DNA from: a virus
Reading direction: 5' to 3' (one strand)
Virus record (IMG/VR): IMGVR_UViG_3300043449_001239
Span: 1 to 45,427 of that record
Length of the DNA stretch: 45,427 bases
A model generated the notes under the pieces. That model ran no database searches. It was not told the origin of the DNA and was given only the letters and a program-made list of their open reading frames with translations. The position numbers and the translations under genes were made by a program. This document shows positions 2,606 to 23,020 of this stretch, piece by piece. Position 1 is the stretch's first letter, and every line of letters begins with the position of its first letter.

Positions 2606-3216
2606 AAGAGCGACCGATCATCTTCAGCGCCGAGTCAGTGCGCGCGATCCTTGAAGGGCGGAAGACGCAGACGCGGCGAGTCTTGAAGGGTTCGACGGAA
2701 TTCAATGGGCCGTACAACCCGAACTATCTTCGCATCCATCAACACGAAGACGGATGGAAACGCATTTGTCCGCTCGGCGTCATCGGCGACCGGCTCTGGG
2801 TGCGGGAATCGCATCGCCTACTCGCATGCGCGTGCTCAGAAACATGCCGCGTAAAAGAGCATGTGTTTTACGAGGCGGATCAGTCGGGATATGAAGGCGC
2901 ATCAATGGAACGTCTTCGCTCGCCAATCCACATGCCGCGCTGGGCGTCACGCCTGACGCTGGAAATTACCGACGTGCGCGTCCAGCATCTTCAGGACATC
3001 ACCGAAGCCGATTCCATTGCCGAAGGGATGCACAAATTCAAACTACCCGTTGGCGATGTGTACGGATTCGATCCACGTGGTACGCCGGGGGCATGCGTTG
3101 GAGATAGCGCTGTTGATGCGTTCTCCCTAGCGTGGGACCATTTCAACGTCAAGCACGCTCCGTGGGCCTCAAATCCGTTGATTTGGGCCATCACTTTCAG
3201 AAAGGTATCCAAATGA
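2602..3216 (+). CDS. ASCH/PUA-like phage protein
   Basis: A 204-residue protein beginning with the hallmark of a widespread phage family, MKERPIIFSAESVRAILEGR followed by KTQTRRV. It then has GDRLWVRES, PRWASRLTLEITDVRVQHLQ, AFSLAWDHFN and SNPLIWAITFRKV. These segments match the small beta-barrel ASCH/PUA-like fold, sometimes annotated as a phage morphogenetic protein. The likely role is nucleic-acid or modified-base recognition, but no direct function is established. It is coupled to both neighbours by ATGA overlaps. Confidence 0.8.
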   Translation: MKERPIIFSAESVRAILEGRKTQTRRVLKGSTEFNGPYNPNYLRIHQHEDGWKRICPLGVIGDRLWVRESHRLLACACSETCRVKEHVFYEADQSGYEGASMERLRSPIHMPRWASRLTLEITDVRVQHLQDITEADSIAEGMHKFKLPVGDVYGFDPRGTPGACVGDSAVDAFSLAWDHFNVKHAPWASNPLIWAITFRKVSK

Positions 3217-3473
3217 CCTACGCCGAACTGACCGAAAAGGCCAAGCGCGGCATGCGTAGATCCCGCGTGGACGATCCCGCACTGCCGGTGCGCCTGCGCC
3301 TCGCCGAGATGCGCCACGAGGCGGGGCTGACCTCGTGGGCCGCGTTTGCCAAGCGGCATGGCGTGTCCGCGCAGTTGTTGCTGTACGTGTTGAGCGGCGT
3401 GCAGGAGCCTGGTCCGGCTGTGTTGCGGATCACCGGCTTTGAGAAAGTCGTGACTTACCGGAGGAAGAAATGA
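3213..3473 (+). CDS. Helix-turn-helix DNA-binding protein (XRE-like)
   Basis: An 86-residue protein. The middle (RLRLAEMRHEAGLTSWAAFA, then KRHGVSAQLLLYVLSGVQEP) has the spacing of a Cro/CI-type helix-turn-helix with a VSAQLLLYVLSG recognition region. It begins in an ATGA overlap with the ASCH-like gene. It may be the early-region regulator acting on the repeated promoter blocks, which is inference from position. The 3' end, KVVTYRRKK, encodes the ribosome-binding site of the next gene and is duplicated at the end of that gene. Confidence 0.7.
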   Translation: MTYAELTEKAKRGMRRSRVDDPALPVRLRLAEMRHEAGLTSWAAFAKRHGVSAQLLLYVLSGVQEPGPAVLRITGFEKVVTYRRKK

Positions 3474-3604
3474 CGGGACTCGCGATTGCGGCGGTAGCTA
3501 TTTTTGCGGCGGCGGGACTTATCAAGGCGACGTTGTTTCTATGGCTACTTTATGACGACCGCGAATTTCGGCAGAAGGTCGTGACATACCGGAGGCGGAA
3601 GTGA
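3470..3604 (+). CDS. Small membrane protein, 44 residues
   Basis: The product MTGLAIAAVAIFAAAGLIKA, then TLFLWLLYDDREFRQ and KVVTYRRRK, has one strong hydrophobic helix (residues 3-27) followed by a basic tail. It starts at ATGA with CCGGAGG upstream. Its last 32 bases are a near copy of the last 32 bases of the preceding gene (3442-3473 versus 3573-3604, five differences), so the membrane gene appears inserted with duplication of the gene junction. Confidence 0.6.
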   Translation: MTGLAIAAVAIFAAAGLIKATLFLWLLYDDREFRQKVVTYRRRK

Positions 3605-3813
3605 GTAAGCCGACGATCACCAATGTCGATGTCTGGCTGGTTTGTGTGCAAGCTTACGGCGCATGGTTCCCGCAAATGTCGCTGAATGGCTGGCAAAGGC
3701 AGGAAGATGCCGAAGAAAGCGCGGTTGAGTGGCGGCTGAAATTCCCGCACCGCAAATTCAAGGTAGTGCGCTACACACCGGCCGGTAATGCGCGCTCCAG
3801 CCGGAAGAAGTGA
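3601..3813 (+). CDS. Hypothetical protein, 70 residues
   Basis: It starts with GTG in a GTGA overlap and a GGAGG site eight bases upstream. The product contains VDVWLVCVQAYGAWFPQMSL and KFPHRKFKVVRYTPAG. The KFKVVRY segment near its C-terminus again resembles the KVVTYRR tails of the two genes upstream. It is the last gene of this rightward operon and faces the leftward operon end at 3823. No family recognised. Confidence 0.65.
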   Translation: MSKPTITNVDVWLVCVQAYGAWFPQMSLNGWQRQEDAEESAVEWRLKFPHRKFKVVRYTPAGNARSSRKK

Positions 3814-3822
3814 CGATGGCAA

Positions 3823-4026
3823 CTACTTAGTCGGGTCTTCGCAGTCCCACGAAGCATCTTCGATTTGCTTCTCCAGTTCGGCGATGCGCTTGTCCTTCTG
3901 AATCAGCCGCTCGTTCATGGCTTCGATGCGAGCGAAAAGCACCGCCACGCGCTCTTCGAGGTACCGCTCGCGTTCGGACATTTCCTGTGGCCCTCGGTTG
4001 TCAACGGTTCGTAGTGTCGTAGTCAT
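3823..4026 (-). CDS. Small coiled-coil protein
   Basis: A 67-residue protein, mainly one long heptad-like helix (SERERYLEERVAVLFARIEA, then MNERLIQKDKRIAELEKQIE), predicted to be a coiled coil. The start at 4026 (MTTTLRTVDN) overlaps the upstream stop as ATGA; the longer frame to 4122 lacks such support. It is the last gene of the long leftward operon. Function unknown. Confidence 0.65.
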   Translation of the reverse strand: MTTTLRTVDNRGPQEMSERERYLEERVAVLFARIEAMNERLIQKDKRIAELEKQIEDASWDCEDPTK

Positions 4027-4295
4027 TTCGTCCTCGCTTTCTTGAGTTCTTCGACCATGCAGCGAAACGCAGCCACAAGGCTGACCTGCGGACAGTCCTC
4101 CCTGTGCCCATAGCTGTCGCACTCATCAAGGCAGGGGAAGTTTGCCTCGTCGCTCAGCGCATCAGCCCAGAACGTTCGCAGCGACCAAAGTTCTCCCTCG
4201 ATGGATTGTCCGCGATGCGCCACAGAACGTGGCGGCAATGCCGGAGGATCGCCATTGTCTGCTTCTAGCCGCGCCAGCCGTTCTTCCGCCGTCAT
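4023..4295 (-). CDS. Hypothetical Cys-containing protein
   Basis: A 90-residue protein starting MTAEERLARLEADNGDPPAL. It contains FPCLDECDSYGHREDCPQVS, a possible metal-binding cluster, then a helical end. The start at 4295 is chosen for its ATGA overlap with the preceding membrane gene; an upstream ATG at 4358 is possible. Confidence 0.6.
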   Translation of the reverse strand: MTAEERLARLEADNGDPPALPPRSVAHRGQSIEGELWSLRTFWADALSDEANFPCLDECDSYGHREDCPQVSLVAAFRCMVEELKKARTK

Positions 4296-4393
4296 CGCGT
4301 ACGCTCCATCAGATGCGCCAACGCGTAGATAGAGAAAGTCATCGCAATCACGAGCCATCGGGGCAGCGGGATGTCCTCAGTAAGCCACTTCAT
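4292..4393 (-). CDS. Tiny membrane protein, 33 residues
   Basis: The product MKWLTEDIPLPRWLVIAMTF, then SIYALAHLMERTR, has one transmembrane helix. The start overlaps the previous stop (ATGA). Its last 17 bases (4292-4308) are identical to the end of the preceding gene (4390-4406); both products end in ERTR. This is another gene-junction duplication. Confidence 0.5.
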   Translation of the reverse strand: MKWLTEDIPLPRWLVIAMTFSIYALAHLMERTR

Positions 4394-4530
4394 CGCGTAC
4401 GCTCCACGGTAGTCGAAACGATGCGGCGGCACGTCGGCAGCTCCGCCATGATGAGAAAGCCGATTGCGAACCCGATGGAGTACAGCACCAAGTCTCGGCG
4501 TGTTATCAGTCCAGTCAGCCATGCGGTCAT
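4390..4530 (-). CDS. Tiny membrane protein, 46 residues
   Basis: The product starts MTAWLTGLITRRDLVLYSIG and continues FAIGFLIMAELPTC, with one hydrophobic segment, ending VERTR. The start at 4530 follows AAAGGAGACAAA, a strong ribosome-binding site, and overlaps the upstream stop. Its 3' end is duplicated in the next gene. Confidence 0.55.
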   Translation of the reverse strand: MTAWLTGLITRRDLVLYSIGFAIGFLIMAELPTCRRIVSTTVERTR

Positions 4531-4904
4531 TTTGTCTCCTTTGCTAGTGCAATCTGAAGGGCGCAGTTGACGACAGCATCCCGCTCGCTGTGGTTTGACC
4601 AACACGGTGGCATCATGTCATCGTTTACCTCATTCCGAATGCCGCACTCTGCGCTTCCATCGCTGAACACCTCAGTAAAGACGGAAACGCAGTCTGTCTT
4701 GAGTAAGTGTTCCGCGAACGCCGGCATCTTCCGCCGCAACTCCGCGCAGTCGGCATCGAATGTGAGCGGGTTCCAGCTACGTCGTGCTGCGAACTCCCCG
4801 TCGGGAGTTTGCCAATGAGGCATAACCCCAAGCTGCGGGATTAACCACCACCTCCACCCCATAATCTTGGTCGCGATCAGGTCGATCTTCTCCGCGTCGG
4901 TCAT
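4527..4904 (-). CDS. Phage ABA-sandwich (BC1872-like) protein
   Basis: A 125-residue protein beginning MTDAEKIDLIATKIMGWRWW, then NPLTFDADCAELRRKM, SVFTEVFSDGSAECG and HSERDAVVNCALQIALA. The ATKIMGW start and the final PERAI/CALQIALA-type helix match the small 'phage ABA sandwich' family of unknown function as I recall it. The ATG at 4904 overlaps the upstream stop (ATGA) and has GGAGGGC before it. An in-frame ATG at 4916 is less likely. Confidence 0.65.
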   Translation of the reverse strand: MTDAEKIDLIATKIMGWRWWLIPQLGVMPHWQTPDGEFAARRSWNPLTFDADCAELRRKMPAFAEHLLKTDCVSVFTEVFSDGSAECGIRNEVNDDMMPPCWSNHSERDAVVNCALQIALAKETK

Positions 4905-5146
4905 TTTGCCCTCCATCCGCCGGCCGGAGCCAGCGGCAATCTGATACGTGCGCGCCTCGCGGCCCTTGCCGCCTCGATGCTGTGCTGGCTTGGGGACTCA
5001 CGCGCAACGTCCGGCTTGCGGCACGCGGGGCAGCTAAACGCTGAGTCGTCGCACCATTTCGCCGTCATGAAAAACTTGCGGCAGATCTCGCACTTGCGAA
5101 GGTGCGGCTGCCGGAAGCGGTCACGGTCGCCGTTGTCGACGCTCAT
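4901..5146 (-). CDS. Small zinc-ribbon protein
   Basis: An 81-residue protein with two CxxC knuckles, CEICRKFFMTAKWC and FSCPACRK, roughly residues 19-43, then a basic Arg/Ala-rich tail. It is probably a zinc-binding accessory protein. The start overlaps the helicase stop by ATGA, placing it in the same operon. Confidence 0.65.
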   Translation of the reverse strand: MSVDNGDRDRFRQPHLRKCEICRKFFMTAKWCDDSAFSCPACRKPDVARESPSQHSIEAARAARRARIRLPLAPAGGWRAK

Positions 5147-7155
5147 CTAAACCTCCCGGTCACGCGATCGTAGTAGAGGGATACGGCACCGCCCGCGCGA
5201 CCAACTTCACGGAACCGTACTTTTTGGATGTGGACGTCGGAGCGTCCTGTCGTGTCGGCTTCATCGCGCCACACCGACAGCCCGTTGTCCGCCTTCGCGT
5301 ACCACTCGCTCGCGCCCTTGACGTCGTTCAGCGTAATCACCGGTTTCGGCTGTCCCGGGATGCGGTGGTACTTCGCTGGGTGCGCCACAATGAGCACATG
5401 GATCTGCGCCTGGCGCGCGAGCCAGCGGATCTTCGTCAACGCGTTCCCGATGAATTCGTCTTCGCGCATTTCCTTTGGTCGCGAGATGTCGAGTTCGTTC
5501 CACGGGTCGATGATGAGCCCGTCGAGGTCGTTGATCTGGGAAGCAATCTGGATAATCCGGTCGAGCGAGAATCTGTCCGCCGACGGCTGAATCAGGTGGA
5601 AGTGCTCGATCACCCACTCAAGGTGCTGGTCACGTTCGGCGACGGTCATACGCGGATGCGGCCCCTGGCGGAACGGCTTGTCGGCGTGAATCTCCATCAG
5701 TCCGGCGGCATACCGCGACGCCGGGAGATTTTCAGCACTGAAAGCCGCCCAACGCCAATTTTGGGTAGCCGCGAGGTTTACCATGAGGTTGTCAGCCCAA
5801 GAGCTGTTGTGCGTGGGGATGAATGCTTTTGAGCACAAGTAGAGATGCGATTGAGAATCGACTTTAATGCACCGCACCGGCACTGAAGGAACTGGATCAC
5901 ACGCGGTAATGCGTCGACATCCAAGGCGCGGAGTTGAAGTAACAGTGCGGACAGACTTACGTTCTAGAGCAAACACGGAGGCGTCAGGAGTAAACGTGAC
6001 CCGATACTTCGCTCCGCAGTCTTTTCCGCGAAGCATGGCGCGGCCTGTGATGATCTTCGGAATCCACCCGAGCGAGGCAACGAGTTCGGCAACGTTGTCA
6101 GCCAATCGTGGAATAATGGTTGTGAATTCACAGCGCCCGTACGGAGTGATGTATCCGTCTGTGTCCATGAGCCCCTTTAGGAGCTCTAGCCTTTGTTCGC
6201 GCGATGAGCGGAGATACACGGAAGGGATGTGTTTGTTTCCGAGAACTCCAAGAGTTCGTAGCTTGGCATGTAAGCTTGCCTGCGTCTTAGTCAGGCCGTA
6301 TCCCGCAACCCCAATCCCGTATGTTGCGGCTAATCCCTTGCCAAAGGACTTTCTAGGGGTAGTTGAGATCCCGCATTTTCGGATTGAATCCAATACGCCT
6401 TCATCGGCAGTTGTAATCGCCCCAGAGTTCGTATGCCCATCGCCAATCCATGCTCCGAGAACATACGGCGGAATTATGAATTCAGCTTCACGGCAATGAA
6501 TAGGCTTTGCCGTGACAATCGAATGATTCCGCCGCTTTCCATGCTCCGAAGTGAGGGTTAAATGGATATCTTTGGTGGATCGAGTTTTTGGCGGCGTTCG
6601 CTTATGTGTTTGGTCGGTGCCGCGCTGGCGCAGATACGGGAGTCGATTTTTAGCTTTAGCGTTCCTCACGCTGAGCCGCGCGCGGTAGTCCCAAGTAACC
6701 CATTGATGATCGCCGTCGGCAACAATTTGTGTTCCGTCTGAAAACGTCAGTTGAAAGCACTCGTGGCCATGCATCACTTCCGTTGCTCTGATTACCGTGC
6801 ATGGCAACCCTGATTCATCAAACACCACGTCTCCAGGCTGAATATCGCCCATCGTGGTCCACCCGTCAGGCGTTGGGATTGGCGTGTCTAGTGCCAGCGC
6901 TTTCCCGTGGCCGGGGATGCCCGTAATGACCGTGAGTTCGCCTTTACGAATAGTCCAGTGCTCGTCGAGTGTCGGCCAGCCGGTCGGCATCCCCTTGCGG
7001 TAACCGTTGATGTAGAAGTCGTCGATCTCGGCGCGTAGGGTCTCGGGGTCCACAAGCTCGCCGGGCCGAAGGTCGCCGAGCAGTTCGGGGTCCACGTAGT
7101 CGCCGGACTTGGACAGCGAGACGTAGGCGTTCCAGTCGATGTTCGTATTTCTCAT
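5143..7155 (-). CDS. DnaB-family replicative helicase interrupted by an intein
   Basis: A 670-residue precursor. Residues 1-85 and 451-670 form a RecA-fold helicase: Walker A GIPGHGK at 79-85 completed by Ser-Ser after the intein, Walker B-like DLDGLIIDPWNELD, IHVLIVAHPAK, DVKGASEWYAKADNG and a final IQKVRFREVGRAGG. This resembles the helicase half of phage primase-helicases and DnaB. There is no primase domain, so the mature protein is only about 305 residues. It would unwind DNA at the fork after intein removal. The ATG at 7155 overlaps the upstream stop (ATGA); a GTG at 7167 would add four residues. Confidence 0.85.
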   Translation of the reverse strand: MRNTNIDWNAYVSLSKSGDYVDPELLGDLRPGELVDPETLRAEIDDFYINGYRKGMPTGWPTLDEHWTIRKGELTVITGIPGHGKALALDTPIPTPDGWTTMGDIQPGDVVFDESGLPCTVIRATEVMHGHECFQLTFSDGTQIVADGDHQWVTWDYRARLSVRNAKAKNRLPYLRQRGTDQTHKRTPPKTRSTKDIHLTLTSEHGKRRNHSIVTAKPIHCREAEFIIPPYVLGAWIGDGHTNSGAITTADEGVLDSIRKCGISTTPRKSFGKGLAATYGIGVAGYGLTKTQASLHAKLRTLGVLGNKHIPSVYLRSSREQRLELLKGLMDTDGYITPYGRCEFTTIIPRLADNVAELVASLGWIPKIITGRAMLRGKDCGAKYRVTFTPDASVFALERKSVRTVTSTPRLGCRRITACDPVPSVPVRCIKVDSQSHLYLCSKAFIPTHNSSWADNLMVNLAATQNWRWAAFSAENLPASRYAAGLMEIHADKPFRQGPHPRMTVAERDQHLEWVIEHFHLIQPSADRFSLDRIIQIASQINDLDGLIIDPWNELDISRPKEMREDEFIGNALTKIRWLARQAQIHVLIVAHPAKYHRIPGQPKPVITLNDVKGASEWYAKADNGLSVWRDEADTTGRSDVHIQKVRFREVGRAGGAVSLYYDRVTGRFR
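5806..6900 (-). other. Intein with LAGLIDADG endonuclease, class 3 type
   Basis: A 365-residue insertion between the Lys and Ser of the helicase Walker A motif. It starts ALALDTPIPTPDGWTTMGDI (block A, with Ala in place of Cys1) and ends AFIPTHN before Ser+1. Block B has DGDHQW (His150, Trp152 of the precursor), block F has VRCIKVD (Cys429), and block G has PTHN (Thr448, Asn450). Trp-Cys-Thr at these places with a non-nucleophilic residue 1 is the signature of class 3 inteins. Two dodecapeptides, LGAWIGDG and LLKGLMDTDG, mark a LAGLIDADG homing endonuclease. Confidence 0.9.
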
Positions 7156-7577
7156 GCGAATTTCCACTCAATCCACATTCCAGAATCCGACCTAAACCAT
7201 TCATTCTTCATGACATCGGCGATAATCGATTCCCGCTTGGCCGGTGGACCGCGCATGATGACGTCCGCCTGCTCGTCGGTGCCGTACACCAAAACCGTCC
7301 AAATGGCCTCTAGGCGCGCGTTCTTGCCCTTCGAGGCTATCCGGGCGGCTACGGCGGTTGTGTGCGCGCTACGGGCCGTCTGGAACGCTTGGTAGCCGGT
7401 TACAGGCGGCTTTGGTATGCCGCGCCACAGGGCTTCGAGGAAAACGTGCAGGTTCTCCTCGGCCTCCCATGCGGCAATCTCGGCCGCGCAGCCTTCGGCC
7501 TGGATCGCGGCGCGCTCGTCGGCGTCAACCTGCCGGTCGTCGAGGTCGACGAGAAGGCGGTAGATTTCGGCTTTCAT
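7152..7577 (-). CDS. Hypothetical helical protein, 141 residues
   Basis: Mostly helical (MKAEIYRLLVDLDDRQVDAD, AAIQAEGCAAEIAAWEAEEN, GYQAFQTARSAHTTAVAARI). It starts and ends in ATGA overlaps with its neighbours, directly upstream of the helicase. Position suggests a replication-associated role such as a loader partner, but no family was recognised. Confidence 0.65.
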   Translation of the reverse strand: MKAEIYRLLVDLDDRQVDADERAAIQAEGCAAEIAAWEAEENLHVFLEALWRGIPKPPVTGYQAFQTARSAHTTAVAARIASKGKNARLEAIWTVLVYGTDEQADVIMRGPPAKRESIIADVMKNEWFRSDSGMWIEWKFA

Positions 7578-14719: not shown

Positions 14720-14886
14720 CCAACGAGCAAGCTCAATTTGTTGTGCAATGGCTGCGCGAGCAATTGGATACCGGCGCCGTAATCAAAAAGCAAGACGGAG
14801 CTGAGCGCTGCCTGATCGCACACAAGGATGGCAGCATCGACGGGTGTCTCTCGATTGACCTGAATGCCAGACCCCCGAACGCGTAA
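14716..14886 (+). CDS. Hypothetical protein, 56 residues
   Basis: A GTG-started frame, MTNEQAQFVVQWLREQLDTG, then AVIKKQDGAERCLIAHKDGS and CLSIDLNARPP. It is coupled to the gene before it (GTGA) and overlaps the start of the large terminase by 23 bases. Unknown function. Confidence 0.55.
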   Translation: MTNEQAQFVVQWLREQLDTGAVIKKQDGAERCLIAHKDGSIDGCLSIDLNARPPNA

Positions 14887-16651
14887 CACCCGTCATCTTG
14901 CCAAGGCCCCGGAAACGAAACCGCTCGACTTCGCCGGGCCGAAGCAAGAGGAAGCTTTCCGCTACGGTCCGTTCCCGACGTGTCTCTCCGGCGCCTTCAA
15001 TTCCGCCAAGACGGTTACGTTCGCCCTCAAAATGCTCTACATCGCCGACCAGTACCCCGGCTACCGGTGGTTCGTCGGACGCCGGATCTGGGATGAACTG
15101 CGGAAGACCACCATGGCGTCGTTCTTCAAATTCTGCCCCCGGCAGGCATGGGAGCCGAACGGGCGAAGATCGGATACCGAGAAGATCCTGCAACTGAACA
15201 ATGGATCCGAGTTCATCTGGTTCCACCTCGATGACCCGGACACCCTGTCGATCGTGCGTGGACTCGAAATCAACGGGTTCATGCTCGATCAGGCCGAAGA
15301 ACTCGACGAAGAGGTGTTCACGGTCCTGATGTCGCGCCTCGGCCGCTGGGACAAGGCGGAAGTCCCGCAGGCGATGCTCGATTTCCACGCCCTGACCTCC
15401 GGCGGTAAGCCATGGCCGTTCATCCATCCGGTGACCAAGCGGAACATGCCGCCGTCATACCCGTTGCTGACGTGCAACCCGGATCACGAGCTGCATTGGA
15501 TCTACACGCGCTTCCACCCGGACTCCCCGTCTCACGTCGAGAAGCGGCACATGATCGGACACGACTCCCCCGACTGCCCGAACGCGCAGATGGACCGCCT
15601 CGGCGGATGCAAGTGCGGACGCCTGCTCATCGACGGCTCTTGGGCGCATCCCGGCATGCGGATCAGCTACGCCGATATGGGCTACAAGATGTACGAGGTC
15701 TCGGCCTACGACAACAAGTACGCCACGCGCCAGACGTTGCAGGAGATGGAGTCGCAGGACGAGACGTGGAAACGCCGGTTCCTGTTTGGCAAGTGGGGCA
15801 TCCCTGAAGGCCAGATCCACAACGTGCGTGAATCCTCGATGCTGAAGCCATCCCCTGAGGTGCTCGCCCACATCCAGTATCGGTGCACACTACACCGCGC
15901 GATGGACCACGGCGACGAAGCGCCGTCCTGCTGCCTGTGGTTCGGAACGGATGCCGATGGGAATGTGTTTACCTATCGCGAGTACTACATGCCGAACAAA
16001 CTCATCTCGGAGCACCGCGTCAACATCTACGGATTGAGCCGCAACGAACGCTACCTGTCCAACATGGCGGACCCCGCGATATTCGGACCCACGATGCAGA
16101 AGCACGGCCAGCGTTGGTCCGTCGCTCAGGAGTACGCCGACGGCGTGAACCATCCGTTAGAGACGGTCATCTACTGGGAGCGCGGCGACAACGACGAGCT
16201 GGGGACCCGCAACAAGATCTCGGAGTACCTCCGCCCGTCGGGGCATTGGCAGATGGTCAACGGCGAGCCGGTCGAGGTTCCACGCCCGCATCCGATCACC
16301 AAAGAGATGGGCTTCTGGCCGCGTCTCTACTATGTGATGAAGACGCAGGACTACCCAAACGGCTGCGACCACGTCGTTCGTCAGACTAAAAGCGCGCGTC
16401 GACTGAAGCTCGGAACTGAGAATGGAAAGCCAATATTCAGCGACGAACGCGATCCGAAGGTCCCGGATCACGCTCTAGACCCTGAACGCTATTTTTTAGC
16501 TTCGATGCCATCTTTGCCGCATTCGATACCGAAAAAGTACGCGGCCAACAGTTTTATGGGTAGACGCAAGGCGGCAATCGAGTATAAGAAGCGTTTCAAG
16601 AACCGTCTGGCGATGGACGCCAAACGGGCTGCGGAGGCGAGATTTGGCTAA
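14864..16651 (+). CDS. terL: Terminase large subunit
   Basis: A 595-residue packaging ATPase/nuclease. Walker A-like LSGAFNSAKT lies at residues 41-50, Walker B at INGFMLDQAEELDEE with acidic residues, and a coupling region and nuclease half follow (GTDADGNVFTYREYYM, YLSNMADPAIFG, VPDHALDPERYFL resembling the final conserved DHxxDxxRY motif). It drives DNA into the prohead at the portal. The C-terminal residues EARFG and the stop region are duplicated at 17202-17222. Confidence 0.9.
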   Translation: MPDPRTRNTRHLAKAPETKPLDFAGPKQEEAFRYGPFPTCLSGAFNSAKTVTFALKMLYIADQYPGYRWFVGRRIWDELRKTTMASFFKFCPRQAWEPNGRRSDTEKILQLNNGSEFIWFHLDDPDTLSIVRGLEINGFMLDQAEELDEEVFTVLMSRLGRWDKAEVPQAMLDFHALTSGGKPWPFIHPVTKRNMPPSYPLLTCNPDHELHWIYTRFHPDSPSHVEKRHMIGHDSPDCPNAQMDRLGGCKCGRLLIDGSWAHPGMRISYADMGYKMYEVSAYDNKYATRQTLQEMESQDETWKRRFLFGKWGIPEGQIHNVRESSMLKPSPEVLAHIQYRCTLHRAMDHGDEAPSCCLWFGTDADGNVFTYREYYMPNKLISEHRVNIYGLSRNERYLSNMADPAIFGPTMQKHGQRWSVAQEYADGVNHPLETVIYWERGDNDELGTRNKISEYLRPSGHWQMVNGEPVEVPRPHPITKEMGFWPRLYYVMKTQDYPNGCDHVVRQTKSARRLKLGTENGKPIFSDERDPKVPDHALDPERYFLASMPSLPHSIPKKYAANSFMGRRKAAIEYKKRFKNRLAMDAKRAAEARFG

Positions 16652-17636: not shown

Positions 17637-17825
17637 ATGGCTAAGCCGACGGATAAAGAGTTGGCCCAACTGGCGGCGTATGTTCTCGATAGAGAAGCCG
17701 TCGACGAAGGCTACTGGATGCCCAGAGTGGGGTACTGCCTCAATGGTCGGCCGATCCCGTCGGCACTTGTAGAGAAAGCCATCGAGAAGCAACTGGAAAA
17801 GGGAAATGCCAAAACCAACGGATAA
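17637..17825 (+). CDS. Small cassette protein, paralogue B
   Basis: A 62-residue product starting MAKPTDKELAQLAAYVLDRE. Its first 20 bases equal the portal-start copy at 16954-16973. The end (GRPIPSALVEKAIEKQLEKG) is paralogous to 17214-17450. It overlaps the portal start by 20 bases. Confidence 0.6.
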   Translation: MAKPTDKELAQLAAYVLDREAVDEGYWMPRVGYCLNGRPIPSALVEKAIEKQLEKGNAKTNG

Positions 17826-19659
17826 AGACCGTGTGCAGGCGTGGGAAACCCGCGTCAAGATGGGCACGGACATGCACAAGGATTGGGCTGAGAAGTACTC
17901 CGTCGACATGCTGGAGAACTACTACTACGGACACCAGTGGCAAGGCGAATCGAGTGAATGGGAAGCCCGCAAGTACGTCATCAACATGTTCTTCCCGTCG
18001 ATCAACATTTCGTCGCCGTCGATGCTGTTCGAACTTCCCAAGTACACGGTTGCCCCGCGAATCACCCGCTCCGATGACCCATACTCCGATGTAGTCGCCC
18101 GCGCCAAACTGCAAGAAGACGTGCTCAACAACCGTGTACAGGAAACCGACCTCGGCTTCGAGAACGCCGTGGGGCTTGCGCTGTTCGATGCGCGCTTCCG
18201 GTTTGGCGTCGTCCAGGTTGGCTACAACGCCGATTTCGTCGAGAACCCGAACGCCGGCAAGCCGATCCTCCGCAACAGCGATGACGTGGCTTCCGCGATG
18301 ACCGACGAGAACGGCTTTGAAATCAAGCAGCCGTCGAAGCTGGTTGCCAAGGAATCACTGTTCCTGAAGTGGGTGCCTGCGAAGGATTTCCGCGTGTCCT
18401 CGCGTCAGGACAACCGGCTTGAAGCATGCGACTGGTGCGGGTATTCCGAATGGCACTATGTCGACGATCTGCAAGCGAACCCGAACTATAAGAACACGTC
18501 GAGCCTGAAGGCATCCGGCCGCATGAAGGGTGGCCCGAAGGAAGAAGACCTCGCCTACGACTCGGAGAAGAGGGACCTTCACCGTGGCATGGTTAAGGTC
18601 TGGTTCGTCTGGGACATGCGCGCCAAGATCAAACGCGTCTGGGTGAACGGATACGACAAGTTCCTTCAGGAGCGCCCGTACTCGTTTCTTCCGTTCGCGG
18701 TGTTGAACTTTCACCCGATTCTCGGGCAGTTCTACCCGCTGCCGCCGACGTACAACTGGACTCCGGCGCAGAACGAACTGAACGACACCCGCGAGATGCA
18801 GCGGATTCACCGCAAGCGTGCCGTCCGCCGGTACCTGCGAACGAGCCGTATCCGGCAGGAAGAGTTCGACAAGCTGCGCGATGGCGAGGACATGGTGTGC
18901 GCGGAGGTCGACGGCGGGACCACTGAAGGCGTGTTGACGCCGGTCGCGGATGCCCCTCTTGACGCGCAAGTGGCCCGCAACATCCCGCAATCGCAGGACG
19001 ACTTCTCGCGGATCTCCGGCATCTCCGGCGAAGCGCAGCAGGTCGCGCAGTCTGAGACCGCGACTCAGGCGAACCTGATCGCGTTGAACTCGCAGATCCG
19101 TGAATCGCACGACCGGATCAAGGTCGCCAAGTGGCTCGGCAAGATCGGCAAGCTGCTGCTCATGTCTTTGCGTGAGAATATGGTGCTGCCGTGGTGGATC
19201 AAGATCGCGGTGGACCCGACGTCACCGGCCGCCCAGATGGAAGCGCAGGAAGTCAACAAGCTCTGGATGCAGATTACGTCCGAAGAACTTGGCGACATTG
19301 ACATGGACATCGAGGTCGATCTCACCTCGATGTCTCCGGTATCCCGCGAGCAGGAGCGCACCAACTGGCTGACATTCCTCGGGCTCGTGACGAATCCACA
19401 GATGGGAATGGTCCTGATGGCGTCCCCGGCGCTGCTTCGCAAGACGGCCGGCCTCTTCGGGATTCACAACGAACGCGACCTCGTGGAACTCTCGATGGCG
19501 CTCCAGCAGGCCGCGCAGGCAGCGATGATGGCGCAGTCCGGGGGCGCGGGGATTTCCGGGGAGCCGGAGTCTGGCGGCGCCGCTCCCGGCCCGACGCCTG
19601 ACAACGACGACATCACCGGGCAATTGAAACAGCAACTCCCCGTGGAGGCGGTGCAGTAA
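17806..19659 (+). CDS. Portal protein
   Basis: A 617-residue protein of portal length. Typical segments are MHKDWAEKYSVDMLENYYYG, VKVWFVWDMRAKIKRVWVNG, FLPFAVLNFHPILGQFYPLP, FSRISGISGEAQQVAQSETA and a long helical hub (NLIALNSQIRESHDRIKVAK). It would form the dodecameric ring through which DNA enters and leaves. It lies after the large terminase and before the scaffold, as expected. The stop overlaps the next ATG as TAATG. Confidence 0.85.
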   Translation: MPKPTDKDRVQAWETRVKMGTDMHKDWAEKYSVDMLENYYYGHQWQGESSEWEARKYVINMFFPSINISSPSMLFELPKYTVAPRITRSDDPYSDVVARAKLQEDVLNNRVQETDLGFENAVGLALFDARFRFGVVQVGYNADFVENPNAGKPILRNSDDVASAMTDENGFEIKQPSKLVAKESLFLKWVPAKDFRVSSRQDNRLEACDWCGYSEWHYVDDLQANPNYKNTSSLKASGRMKGGPKEEDLAYDSEKRDLHRGMVKVWFVWDMRAKIKRVWVNGYDKFLQERPYSFLPFAVLNFHPILGQFYPLPPTYNWTPAQNELNDTREMQRIHRKRAVRRYLRTSRIRQEEFDKLRDGEDMVCAEVDGGTTEGVLTPVADAPLDAQVARNIPQSQDDFSRISGISGEAQQVAQSETATQANLIALNSQIRESHDRIKVAKWLGKIGKLLLMSLRENMVLPWWIKIAVDPTSPAAQMEAQEVNKLWMQITSEELGDIDMDIEVDLTSMSPVSREQERTNWLTFLGLVTNPQMGMVLMASPALLRKTAGLFGIHNERDLVELSMALQQAAQAAMMAQSGGAGISGEPESGGAAPGPTPDNDDITGQLKQQLPVEAVQ

Positions 19660-20057: not shown

Positions 20058-20100
20058 AAGGGCGTTCATCGTTCGAACGAAACGGTGGATGCCCTTTTTG
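20058..20100 (+). terminator. Rho-independent terminator before the scaffold gene
   Basis: AAGGGC (20058-20063) and GCCCTT (20091-20096) extend with wobble pairs into a 13-pair stem (through 20070 and 20084), followed by TTTTTG. The loop carries CGTTCGAACG. It separates portal-region from capsid-region transcription and may set their ratio. Confidence 0.75.
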
Positions 20101-20130
20101 TTGGAGCGAGCAACAAAGGAGCATGACGAT

Positions 20131-21075
20131 ATGTCCGAGACCACCGCAACCGTCGACACCGCAGCCCCCGCAGCGCCGCAGTCCATCCGCGAGCACTACG
20201 AGGCTGCTAAATCCGCACAGTCCACCATGGACCACGATGCGGCTGGGCCGACGAGCGGCGACACCCCGGATACGCCACCGGCTGAAGAAACCGATAAGGC
20301 AGCGGATCAGCCCGCCGAAACCGCCGAAACCGAAGACACGCAACTCCTAACCAAGGAAGAACTGGCTGCGCTCTCGCCGAAAGACCGTGCCAATGCCGAA
20401 AAATGGCAAGCCCGGCTCACGCAGAAGTCGCAGGCCATCGCCGCGCAATCCCGCGAGTTCGAGGAATGGAAAGGCGTCGCTCAGGCCCTGAAGTCGAACC
20501 CCGTTGAAACCCTGCAAGAACTTGCAAAGGCTAACGGGTGGACGATGCAGCAGGTCGCGAAAGACGCTGAAGCCGCCAAGACCATCACGGAAAGCGCCAT
20601 GGCGGAGTTGCCGGAAGAACTTCAGTTCATGAAGCCGTATTTCGATGCCGCTGTGAAGCAGGCCGTCGCGTCCATGCGTTCGGAGATTGCGCCTCTAAAG
20701 GAGTCGCATGCCCGGATGGCGGTGGAAGCCTCGGCCCGCGAGACAGAGGCGGTGATTGCGGCGTTCGGTGCCAAGCATCCCGGATGGGAAAAGTACGAAT
20801 CCGCGATGACGAAGCTCGGCGAAAAGCTCCAGCCCAATGGCATGGATGAGGGCGAGTACATGGAAACGCTCTACCACCTTGCCAGTCGGGGAGACGACGA
20901 AGCGCGCAAGACAGCGGCAGTCGTCAAGAAGATGGAGAATGCCGCCAAGGCATCCGAACCTTCAGGGGCGGGAGTTCCGGCAGCGCGTGTCGAACATGTC
21001 ATGCCGCAGGGAGCTGCGGGTGACATTCGGGCCGCATACGAAGCCGCCAAGCAGGGCGTCGTGTGGACCCGCTGA
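20131..21075 (+). CDS. Capsid scaffolding protein
   Basis: A 314-residue acidic, helix-rich protein starting MSETTATVDTAAPAAPQSIR after AAAGGAG. It contains LTKEELAALSPKDRANAEKW, a coiled-coil-like middle, EELQFMKPYFDAAVKQAVAS and a C-terminal GDIRAAYEAAKQG. Low-complexity N-terminus, charged helices and position between portal and major capsid protein are typical of scaffolds. An in-frame ATG at 20089 lies inside the terminator and is rejected. Confidence 0.75.
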   Translation: MSETTATVDTAAPAAPQSIREHYEAAKSAQSTMDHDAAGPTSGDTPDTPPAEETDKAADQPAETAETEDTQLLTKEELAALSPKDRANAEKWQARLTQKSQAIAAQSREFEEWKGVAQALKSNPVETLQELAKANGWTMQQVAKDAEAAKTITESAMAELPEELQFMKPYFDAAVKQAVASMRSEIAPLKESHARMAVEASARETEAVIAAFGAKHPGWEKYESAMTKLGEKLQPNGMDEGEYMETLYHLASRGDDEARKTAAVVKKMENAAKASEPSGAGVPAARVEHVMPQGAAGDIRAAYEAAKQGVVWTR

Positions 21076-21095
21076 CACGAAAGGTAGGGCAGTAA

Positions 21096-23020
21096 ATGCC
21101 TGCAACAAGCGAAACCAGAACTTACGATGCGCTGTTGTCCACGACCCTCGAAAATTGGGCCAAGGGCATCGGCGACACCATCACCACGTCCAACTTCTTC
21201 TACTACATGCTGAAGCGGTCGAAGAGCTGGATGGGCGTGGACAACCTCGGCGAACGTTGCCGCTACTCGCTGCGCTATGCCAACGGCAACGCAGACGTGT
21301 ACTCGGACTTGAACGTAGGTCCTGTGGTCGGCTTCGGCCGCGCGTAATACCTTGGAAGGTCAACGTGCTTGAGTTTCCACAGATTGCAGCCACGACAGAG
21401 CGTTTGGGCGTTGCTTCGGCCATTCGTCCCGCCATCGAAAATCGGGATGATGTGGTCGAGTTCCAAGTGCTCGGTGGTTCGGCAATAGGCGCAGAGCGTT
21501 CCGGTCCAATCGCGTCTTTGGCGTTTGGTAAACTGGGCACGATGGCGTCGAAACTCGGGCGGCTTTCTGAAGCGTTTAGGGGAACTAGATTGACCGGCAA
21601 TGATTCTGTCGCGGTGTTCGGCCCACATCAGGCGGGACGCTTCGGCGATGCGCTTGCGAGCTTCTTCGGTATGCCGATAGCCGAGAGCGTTAGTGTTGCC
21701 AGTGGCTTTTCCTTTCCTCGAAGCAGAGACAATTGCTTTGGTGGCATCAGTGTGATGTCGTCCCCAAAATTGGTTCCCGGTTCCTGTTTGCCGCTTCGCC
21801 ATGCAGGCGCGGGAGCAGGTAATGTGGGACCCCAAGGCAATATGAGAACGGCTTCGGTAGAAGGAAGTTCCGCAGATCGCGCAGTCAAAGTATTGGCCTT
21901 TTCGTGTATAAACGCGCACCATGCCTCCACAGCAAACGGGGTGAATTCAGGGAAACACTTAGACTCAACTCCAGAGTATAAGTCAATCCTGAGCCAAGCC
22001 AAAGCGGAAACGCCTTGGAAGGTGCAGAGACTAGGGGACGAGGCTAACGCGTCAAGCTATGCCAGTAACTCCCCCACGAGCGCCCTGCCCGAAAGGGATG
22101 ATATAGTCCGAGCTGCATGGCGACATGCAGAAGTAGGGAGTAAACGGCCCTACGATAACACTACTGACGACGTCATCGACACGACCCCCATGGACGGGAT
22201 CACGTCGGCATTCTTCAACTGGGTGCAGTTGGCGGTCTCGATCTCGATCTCTCGCATCGAAGAGCGGAAGAACAGCGGCGAATACGCCATGCTCGACTTG
22301 CTCGAAGAGAAGTCGAACCAGGCCATGGACGGCATCACGGAACGGTTCAACAAGGCGTTCTTGCAGGGCAACGGAATCAACTCCGCGACTGCGATCACCA
22401 CGCCGTTCACCAGCACGACCAACGGTTCGACGTTCTTCACGCCGCTGCCGTTGCTTGTCGGCCAGACACCAACCGCGGGCACCATTGGCAGCATCGCCGC
22501 CAACGTGTCCGACAACGGCGTGTCGTGGTGGGCGAACCAGAAGAGCGCCGCGACGGACACCAACTTCGCGAGCTTCTTCAAGGACCTCGACAAGCTGCGG
22601 AACAACTGCTCGAAGGGCGTTGGCGGAGCCCCCGACATTCACTTGGTCGATCAGTCGACATTCGAGCTGTACGTGGCCGCGCTCCGCAAGGACAACCGGT
22701 TCACGGACACCACGCGTGCCGACATTCCCTTCGACAACGTTGCCTTCCACGGCAAGCCGGTCACGTGGGATGAGTTCATGCCGAACTGGTCCGGAACCAC
22801 GACCGTGCAGAGCACGACTCAGGGTTCTTGGGTCATGCTGAACTCGAAGAACATCCAGGTGAAGTACGACAAGCAGACGAACTTCACGACTACGCCATTC
22901 GTTCGCCCTGAGAATCAGGACGCGAAGACGGCGCAGATCCTGTGGTACGGAACCCTCGGCTGCAACAACCGGCGCAAGCTGGGCGTGCTGTCCGACATCG
23001 ACACCACATTGACCTCCTAG
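21096..23020 (+). CDS. Major capsid protein, split by a group I intron
   Basis: Exon 1 (21096-21309) starts MPATSETRTYDALLSTTLEN and reaches RYANGNADVYSD. Exon 2 (22155-23020) continues YNTTDDVIDTTPMDGITSAF. Removing 21310-22154 joins them in frame (T|AT = Tyr72), giving 359 residues with no stop; without splicing exon 1 ends at a TAA at 21345-21347. Exon 2 has ISISRIEERKNSGEYAMLDL and FTTTPFVRPENQDAKTAQIL, as in phage major capsid proteins whose subunits build the shell. Splice points may be off by a few bases. Confidence 0.85.
21275..21922 (-). CDS. HNH homing endonuclease, antisense within the capsid-gene intron
   Basis: A 215-residue protein. It has an N-terminal zinc knuckle (FDCAICGTSFYRSRSHIALG, ITCSRAC), two NUMOD3-like repeats (GRHHTDATKAIVSASRKG and GYRHTEEARKRIAEASR), and a C-terminal HNH core (LCAYCRTTEHLELDHIIPIF, NAQTLCRGCNLWK). 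It should cut intron-less capsid genes so the intron is copied in. It is on the strand opposite the capsid gene, so it cannot be made from the late message, and its last 35 bases run into exon 1. Confidence 0.85.
   Translation of the reverse strand: MVRVYTRKGQYFDCAICGTSFYRSRSHIALGSHITCSRACMAKRQTGTGNQFWGRHHTDATKAIVSASRKGKATGNTNALGYRHTEEARKRIAEASRLMWAEHRDRIIAGQSSSPKRFRKPPEFRRHRAQFTKRQRRDWTGTLCAYCRTTEHLELDHIIPIFDGGTNGRSNAQTLCRGCNLWKLKHVDLPRYYARPKPTTGPTFKSEYTSALPLA
21310..22154 (+). ncRNA. Group I self-splicing intron in the capsid gene
   Basis: About 845 bases. Catalytic-core hallmarks: AATCCTGAGCCAAG (21985-21998, P3/P4 strand), a P5-like CCAAAGCG-GAAA-CGCCTTGG hairpin, GGTGCAGAGACTA with GACTA (22029-22033) pairing TAGTC (22104-22108) as P7, CCC-GAAA-GGG, and P9 CTGCATG-GCGA-CATGCAG (22113-22130). 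A P1 candidate pairs GGACTU at the exon end with AGGTCC, placing a U-G wobble at the cut after 21309. The intron would end with G22154. Boundaries are inferred from P1 and reading frame. Confidence 0.88.

Follow-up and report, generated by a model that had tools for sequence, protein, structure and literature searches.

A phage major capsid gene interrupted by a probably mobile group I intron with an antisense HNH/NUMOD3 nuclease gene

The interrupted capsid gene and its relatives

The DNA considered here, called the window throughout, is the whole 45,427-nucleotide stretch of IMG/VR virus record IMGVR_UViG_3300043449_001239. Its major capsid gene lies on the + strand in two exons, 21096..21309 (codons 1-71 and the first base of Tyr72) and 22167..23020 (the remainder of Tyr72 to the stop), assigned by alignment with homologues and separated by a predicted group I intron of 857 nt (21310..22166, +). 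The joined exons have the 'major head protein' family phrog_9953 as best match (5e-38). Upstream are a portal-like gene (17806-19659; phrog_156, 2e-9) and a further gene (20089-21075). Judging by the ORF layout, a + strand structural arm appears to begin at ~14.8 kb, and both ends carry replication-type genes on the - strand. On the - strand, largely within the intron, lies an HNH/NUMOD3 homing endonuclease gene (21275..21919). Elsewhere in the window, a 674-aa ORF (5143-7167, -) matches terminase large-subunit families over residues ~79-463 and primase/helicase families over ~455-673.

Searching IMG/VR with the HNH protein recovered two relatives, L001 (63% identity) and L002 (52%), and a search with the three-sequence HNH alignment added L007, L008 and L009 (41%), the last two being identical across the locus. 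In all of them the HNH gene lies antisense inside or adjoining a related capsid gene, and the antisense orientation holds for every full-length relative; capsid identity to the window is ~50% for L001 and 23-26% for L008. The contig of L002, designated L006, passes at ~14865-15390 from capsid intron into AT-rich phage sequence carrying GIY-YIG genes. It looks chimeric, the AT-rich phage after the HNH N-terminus being unrelated, and was thus left out of the 3'-end analysis. GTDB genomes searched with the HNH alignment gave no confirmed relative. RF00028 found a group I intron in only one of 45 records that carry more distant HNH relatives, so that this HNH domain by itself resides mostly outside introns. 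The spliced capsid protein, used alone as query against IMG/VR, gave no confirmed match; a capsid alignment was needed to reach homologues, of which at least 80 are uninterrupted among the matches listed.

The group I ribozyme

The preliminary description had placed a group I intron with hallmark core sequences and a P9 hairpin in the capsid gene, and had called for a covariance-model search. Run with the Rfam group I model RF00028, this search matches the + strand at 21890-22130 with 64.1 bits (E 4e-14), over the curated (gathering) cut-off of 50, and supports the group I fold; the rest of the window gave no further Rfam match at cut-off. The cores of L001 and L008 score 41.0 and 46.7 bits, below the curated cut-off but at E 1e-8 or better in the stretch searched. 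At the gathering threshold Rfam missed L001 and L002, and relaxed searches recovered L001 and L008; the L002 contig gave no match.

The catalytic core (21937..22108, +) was delimited by RF00028 and a hand-written alignment structure comprising P3, P4, P5, P6, P7, P8, P9, P9.2 and P9.0. It contains P3 (21937-21943/22081-22087), P4 (21947-21952/21987-21992), P5 (21957-21961/21979-21983), P7 (22029-22033/22104-22108) and P8 (22088-22090/22095-22097), all on the + strand, and is followed by a 3' domain (22111..22165, +) with P9.0 (AG 22111-22112 with CU 22164-22165), P9 (22113-22130) and P9.2 (22133-22138/22148-22153). Across the window, L001, L008 and L007, 98.3% of cells in the hand-written structure are paired, and sliding the partner by 1-3 columns lowers pairing to 33-38%. 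Double compensatory changes occur in 15 of the 43 pairs, against 7.4 +/- 1.7 in shuffles, and are found in each of P9.0, P9 and P9.2; RNAalifold, unaided, places such changes in 22 of 52 pairs. L007 and L008 are close, so this alignment represents only three independent lineages. The P3-P7-P8 core and P4-P6 are thus present and backed by covariation, to which P7, invariant across the alignment, contributes no evidence. Some 45 nt with weak consensus pairing are inserted between P7 and P3, at the position where subgroup IA has P7.1/P7.2. P10 was sought by eye and none was found. Taken together, model match and covarying core support the element being a group I intron, for which self-splicing is predicted.

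Splice sites and the spliced product

The 5' boundary, 21309|21310, is backed by a P1 with U-G at the splice site, in which exon GGACU (21305-21309, +) pairs with guide GGUCC (21318-21322, +). The guide begins 8 nt inside the intron, at the same offset and with covarying pairs in L001 (GGGU/GCCC) and L002 (GGAU/GUCC); in L008 the helix CGGU/GCCG lies past an additional stem. Since the chance of some 4-bp P1 within 40 nt is 0.43-0.86, the weight of this evidence lies in the common offset and the covariation.

The 3' boundary had been placed at 22154, with removal of 845 bases restoring a frame of 359 residues. The arithmetic of that proposal is sound: the frame is open both ways, as 12 nt are four codons, and G22154 stands immediately 3' of P9.2. 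Splicing there would, however, leave Asn-Thr-Thr-Asp (NTTD) after Tyr72 in the window product, and the equivalent site would leave Asn-Asn-Thr-Asp in L001 and Asn-Ile-Phe-Asp in L008, opposite which the uninterrupted homologues shown have a four-residue gap. Shifting the splice 12 nt downstream removes the insert in all three alike and, for each of the three capsids, scores higher against 80 of the 80 listed uninterrupted homologues (mean +13.3 to +13.7). Furthermore, the ATAACANNNNNG stretch recurs in every related intron and is absent from capsid homologues, and P9.0 sits immediately before G22166, pairing the dinucleotide there with the two bases before P9 in compensatory fashion (AG/CU in the window and L001, GA/UC in L008). 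The covarying P9.0 and the 80 of 80 listed homologues thus define an intron of 21310-22166, 857 nt, with a product of 355 aa and a terminal G at 22166. A 359-aa capsid protein made by the same intron through the 22154 site is very unlikely.

With the predicted 3' splice site at 22166, as these alignments show, and not at 22154, the junction at Asp71-Tyr72 stays as described earlier, now followed by Asp-Val-Ile rather than Asn-Thr-Thr-Asp. The junction of the 355-aa product reads ADVYSDYDVIDTTP, compared with ADSYSGYDQLDTTP in the intron-free L091. The two sites predict different ligated cDNAs, GGACT|ACGACGTC for 22166 and GGACT|ATAACACT for 22154, and different tryptic peptides, one beginning YANGNADVYSDYDVIDTTPMDG for 22166 and ...SDYNTTDDVID for 22154. 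There is a practical trap here, in that a G right behind the final hairpin may pass for the splice site; intron-free homologues and P9.0 covariation settle the matter.

The locus comes from one metagenomic virus record, and the related contig L006 does look chimeric, so an HNH-bearing intron fragment misjoined into the capsid gene during assembly has to be weighed. Such an artefact is hardly credible given that the core is complete, P1 and P9.0 match these very exons, the same architecture recurs on other distinct contigs and the joined exons yield a capsid aligning gap-free at the junction.

The antisense nuclease gene

As the preliminary description held, an HNH gene is encoded inside the intron on the opposite strand. 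It sits between P1 and P3, antisense to capsid gene and ribozyme. The probable start is GTG 21919, giving 214 aa; the ORF from ATG 21922 (21922..21275, -) has 215 aa and carries domains over their cut-offs (HNH_5 1.7e-9, HNH 1.2e-8 and NUMOD3 1.6e-5). Wherever they are present, the HNH-motif and zinc-ligand positions show no variation among the five sequences, and the protein thus combines an HNH domain whose catalytic and zinc-ligand residues are intact with a NUMOD DNA-binding motif. Against L001, pN is 0.26 and pS 0.79, with synonymous sites saturated. An AlphaFold model of the nuclease from the five sequences was unusable (mean pLDDT 43.8).

The ORF runs on into exon 1 by 35 bp (21275..21309, -), and the 35-base extension noted earlier is real as an ORF. 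The further claim, that capsid codons constrain the HNH C-terminus, does not hold: conservation of the protein stops at about residue 194 (window ~21341), and in two of the three distinct relatives the gene ends inside the intron, by 6 nt in L001 and 20 nt in L008, with only L002 reaching exon 1 as well (16 nt). The overlap, which is not conserved, is best read from these alignments as a chance product of the position of the next stop codon, with no conserved dual-coding constraint.

A Shine-Dalgarno sequence, GGAGG (21924..21928, -), lies 4 nt before the GTG. The same motif and spacing precede GTG in L001 and ATG in L007 and L008. Seen on the sense strand, the 7-mer GCCUCCA forms a conservation island. 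The 7-mer is missing in L189, a sister ribozyme with its nuclease in sense orientation, and on that ground is probably a site for the ribosome rather than an element of the ribozyme. This conserved antisense signal supports antisense expression of the gene. Upstream of the nuclease, the antisense promoter scan gave a sole match, TTGGCT-16-TATACT (21975..22002, -), about what chance would give (1 found, 0.8 expected). Since the region near 21-22 kb shows no other recognised - strand gene, transcription would need a local promoter or a long read-through. The earlier statement that the gene needs its own antisense promoter is thus plausible in view of its + strand surroundings and the conserved Shine-Dalgarno sequence, whereas the promoter match itself lends it nothing beyond chance.

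Read in the frame of exon 2, the sense strand stays open over most of the intron in the window (20837-23020, +), L001 (1909-3555, -) and L008 (1945-3504, -). In these three diverged introns the codons of the open frame are in complementary register to those of the HNH gene, and the window gene has no TTA, CTA or TCA among its 26 Leu and Ser codons, compared with ~10% in the genome. The open sense frame is probably a shadow of the HNH gene.

ORFs in complementary register can themselves be shadows, and the antisense HNH ORF might then be a chance ORF or a decaying passenger, unexpressed within a real ribozyme. Retention of its frame at 41-63% identity with catalytic positions intact, a pN well below pS and the retained antisense Shine-Dalgarno sequence make this improbable, even with an unconserved C-terminal tail and no convincing promoter found.

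Mobility of the intron

The intron is sporadically present at a conserved capsid site, at which the listed homologues mentioned above are uninterrupted. On the protein alignment, the introns of the window and L001 coincide, that of L008 lies three codons (9 nt) farther upstream without a change of phase and that of L002 14 nt downstream in a different phase, its position being taken from exon 1 alone on a contig that looks chimeric. The introns thus occupy three positions within 23 nt of one capsid segment. Furthermore, L007 and L008 are ~5% divergent either side of a 1284-nt block that spans the intron and both exon edges and holds 13 differences, compared with 62 expected (Fisher p ~1e-9, an optimistic value, as the borders were picked after seeing the data). 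Such a block is what co-conversion in homing would leave. No near-identical intron-free sister phage was found among the relatives recovered. Sporadic presence, the three closely spaced positions and the co-conversion-like block together indicate that the intron is probably mobile.

Our overall reading, which we hold to be highly probable, is that a mobile group I intron interrupts the capsid gene and carries a separately expressed antisense HNH/NUMOD3 nuclease. The capsid transcript would fold into the ribozyme, which would excise 21310-22166 and ligate the exons at Asp71-Tyr72 to give the 355-aa protein. The nuclease would be made from a separate antisense RNA, transcribed from a putative promoter of its own and translated from its own ribosome-binding site, and would most likely cut intron-free capsid alleles near the conserved segment; repair would then copy the intron and some flanking exon into the cut alleles.

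Comparison with known systems

The closest described arrangement is that of mycobacteriophage LittleE, where splicing of the intron in the capsid gene gp13 was proven by RT-PCR and protein sequencing, and a bottom-strand nuclease, gp14, lies within the spliced intron (PMC3706429; annotation JF937101). Both elements are group I-like introns that interrupt a phage major capsid gene and have their nuclease encoded on the opposite strand. The LittleE nuclease, on the other hand, is LAGLIDADG-type (LAGLIDADG_3) and lies 3' of the core, whereas the window has an HNH/NUMOD3 nuclease between P1 and P3, and the two proteins show no similarity. The window intron was thus rejected as a LittleE-type element on nuclease family and position in the intron, alike though the arrangement is. 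In Didymium, nucleases coded antisense within group I introns (I-DsqI and I-DirII) are expressed in vivo (PMC9548176, PMC3073962); these introns reside, however, in nuclear rDNA, with His-Cys box nucleases and a eukaryotic expression route.

Two further sets of IMG/VR loci bear comparison. L189 (571-1590, -) has a closely related core, the same 3' end (ATAACA...G) and a position at a Tyr codon of a capsid-like gene, but that gene is different, its nuclease is a sense LAGLIDADG-like gene and the antisense Shine-Dalgarno sequence is absent. Nuclease family and orientation are thus swapped on related ribozymes, which makes L189 a ready-made control for antisense nuclease expression; a check of its splicing against phage homologues gave no match. 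Among 80 IMG/VR contigs matching a group I core motif, seven (L170, L178, L179, L192, L211, L237 and L241) carry, like the window, an antisense HNH gene upstream of the core and adjoining capsid exon 2. They differ in having HNH_3 with HTH_38, and all lie beside one other capsid family, which is unrelated (QENDFPKILGAELYRPHPAY...). In L172 (~3000-5700, -), by eye, a capsid homologue seemingly contains a pair of group I introns whose nuclease-like ORFs are HNH in one and LAGLIDADG-looking in the other. That antisense nucleases might be confined to capsid introns was considered and rejected, since introns beside capsid genes also carry sense nucleases (L172, L189 and L213).

LittleE, the window HNH/NUMOD3 gene and the HNH_3 group thus amount to at least three nuclease families antisense in phage capsid introns. 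As a tentative proposal, somewhat less likely to hold than to fail, the antisense-HNH lineage may re-insert across one capsid segment (-9, 0 and +14 nt), the guide changing to match, and antisense placement of the nuclease may recur in phage capsid introns as a way to uncouple its expression from the RNA that has to be spliced. The arrangement is rare and already described in LittleE. The window is a convincing further example, adding with its relatives divergent natural cases of a layout in which a homing nuclease is encoded opposite a ribozyme, within a gene whose expression is normally very high.
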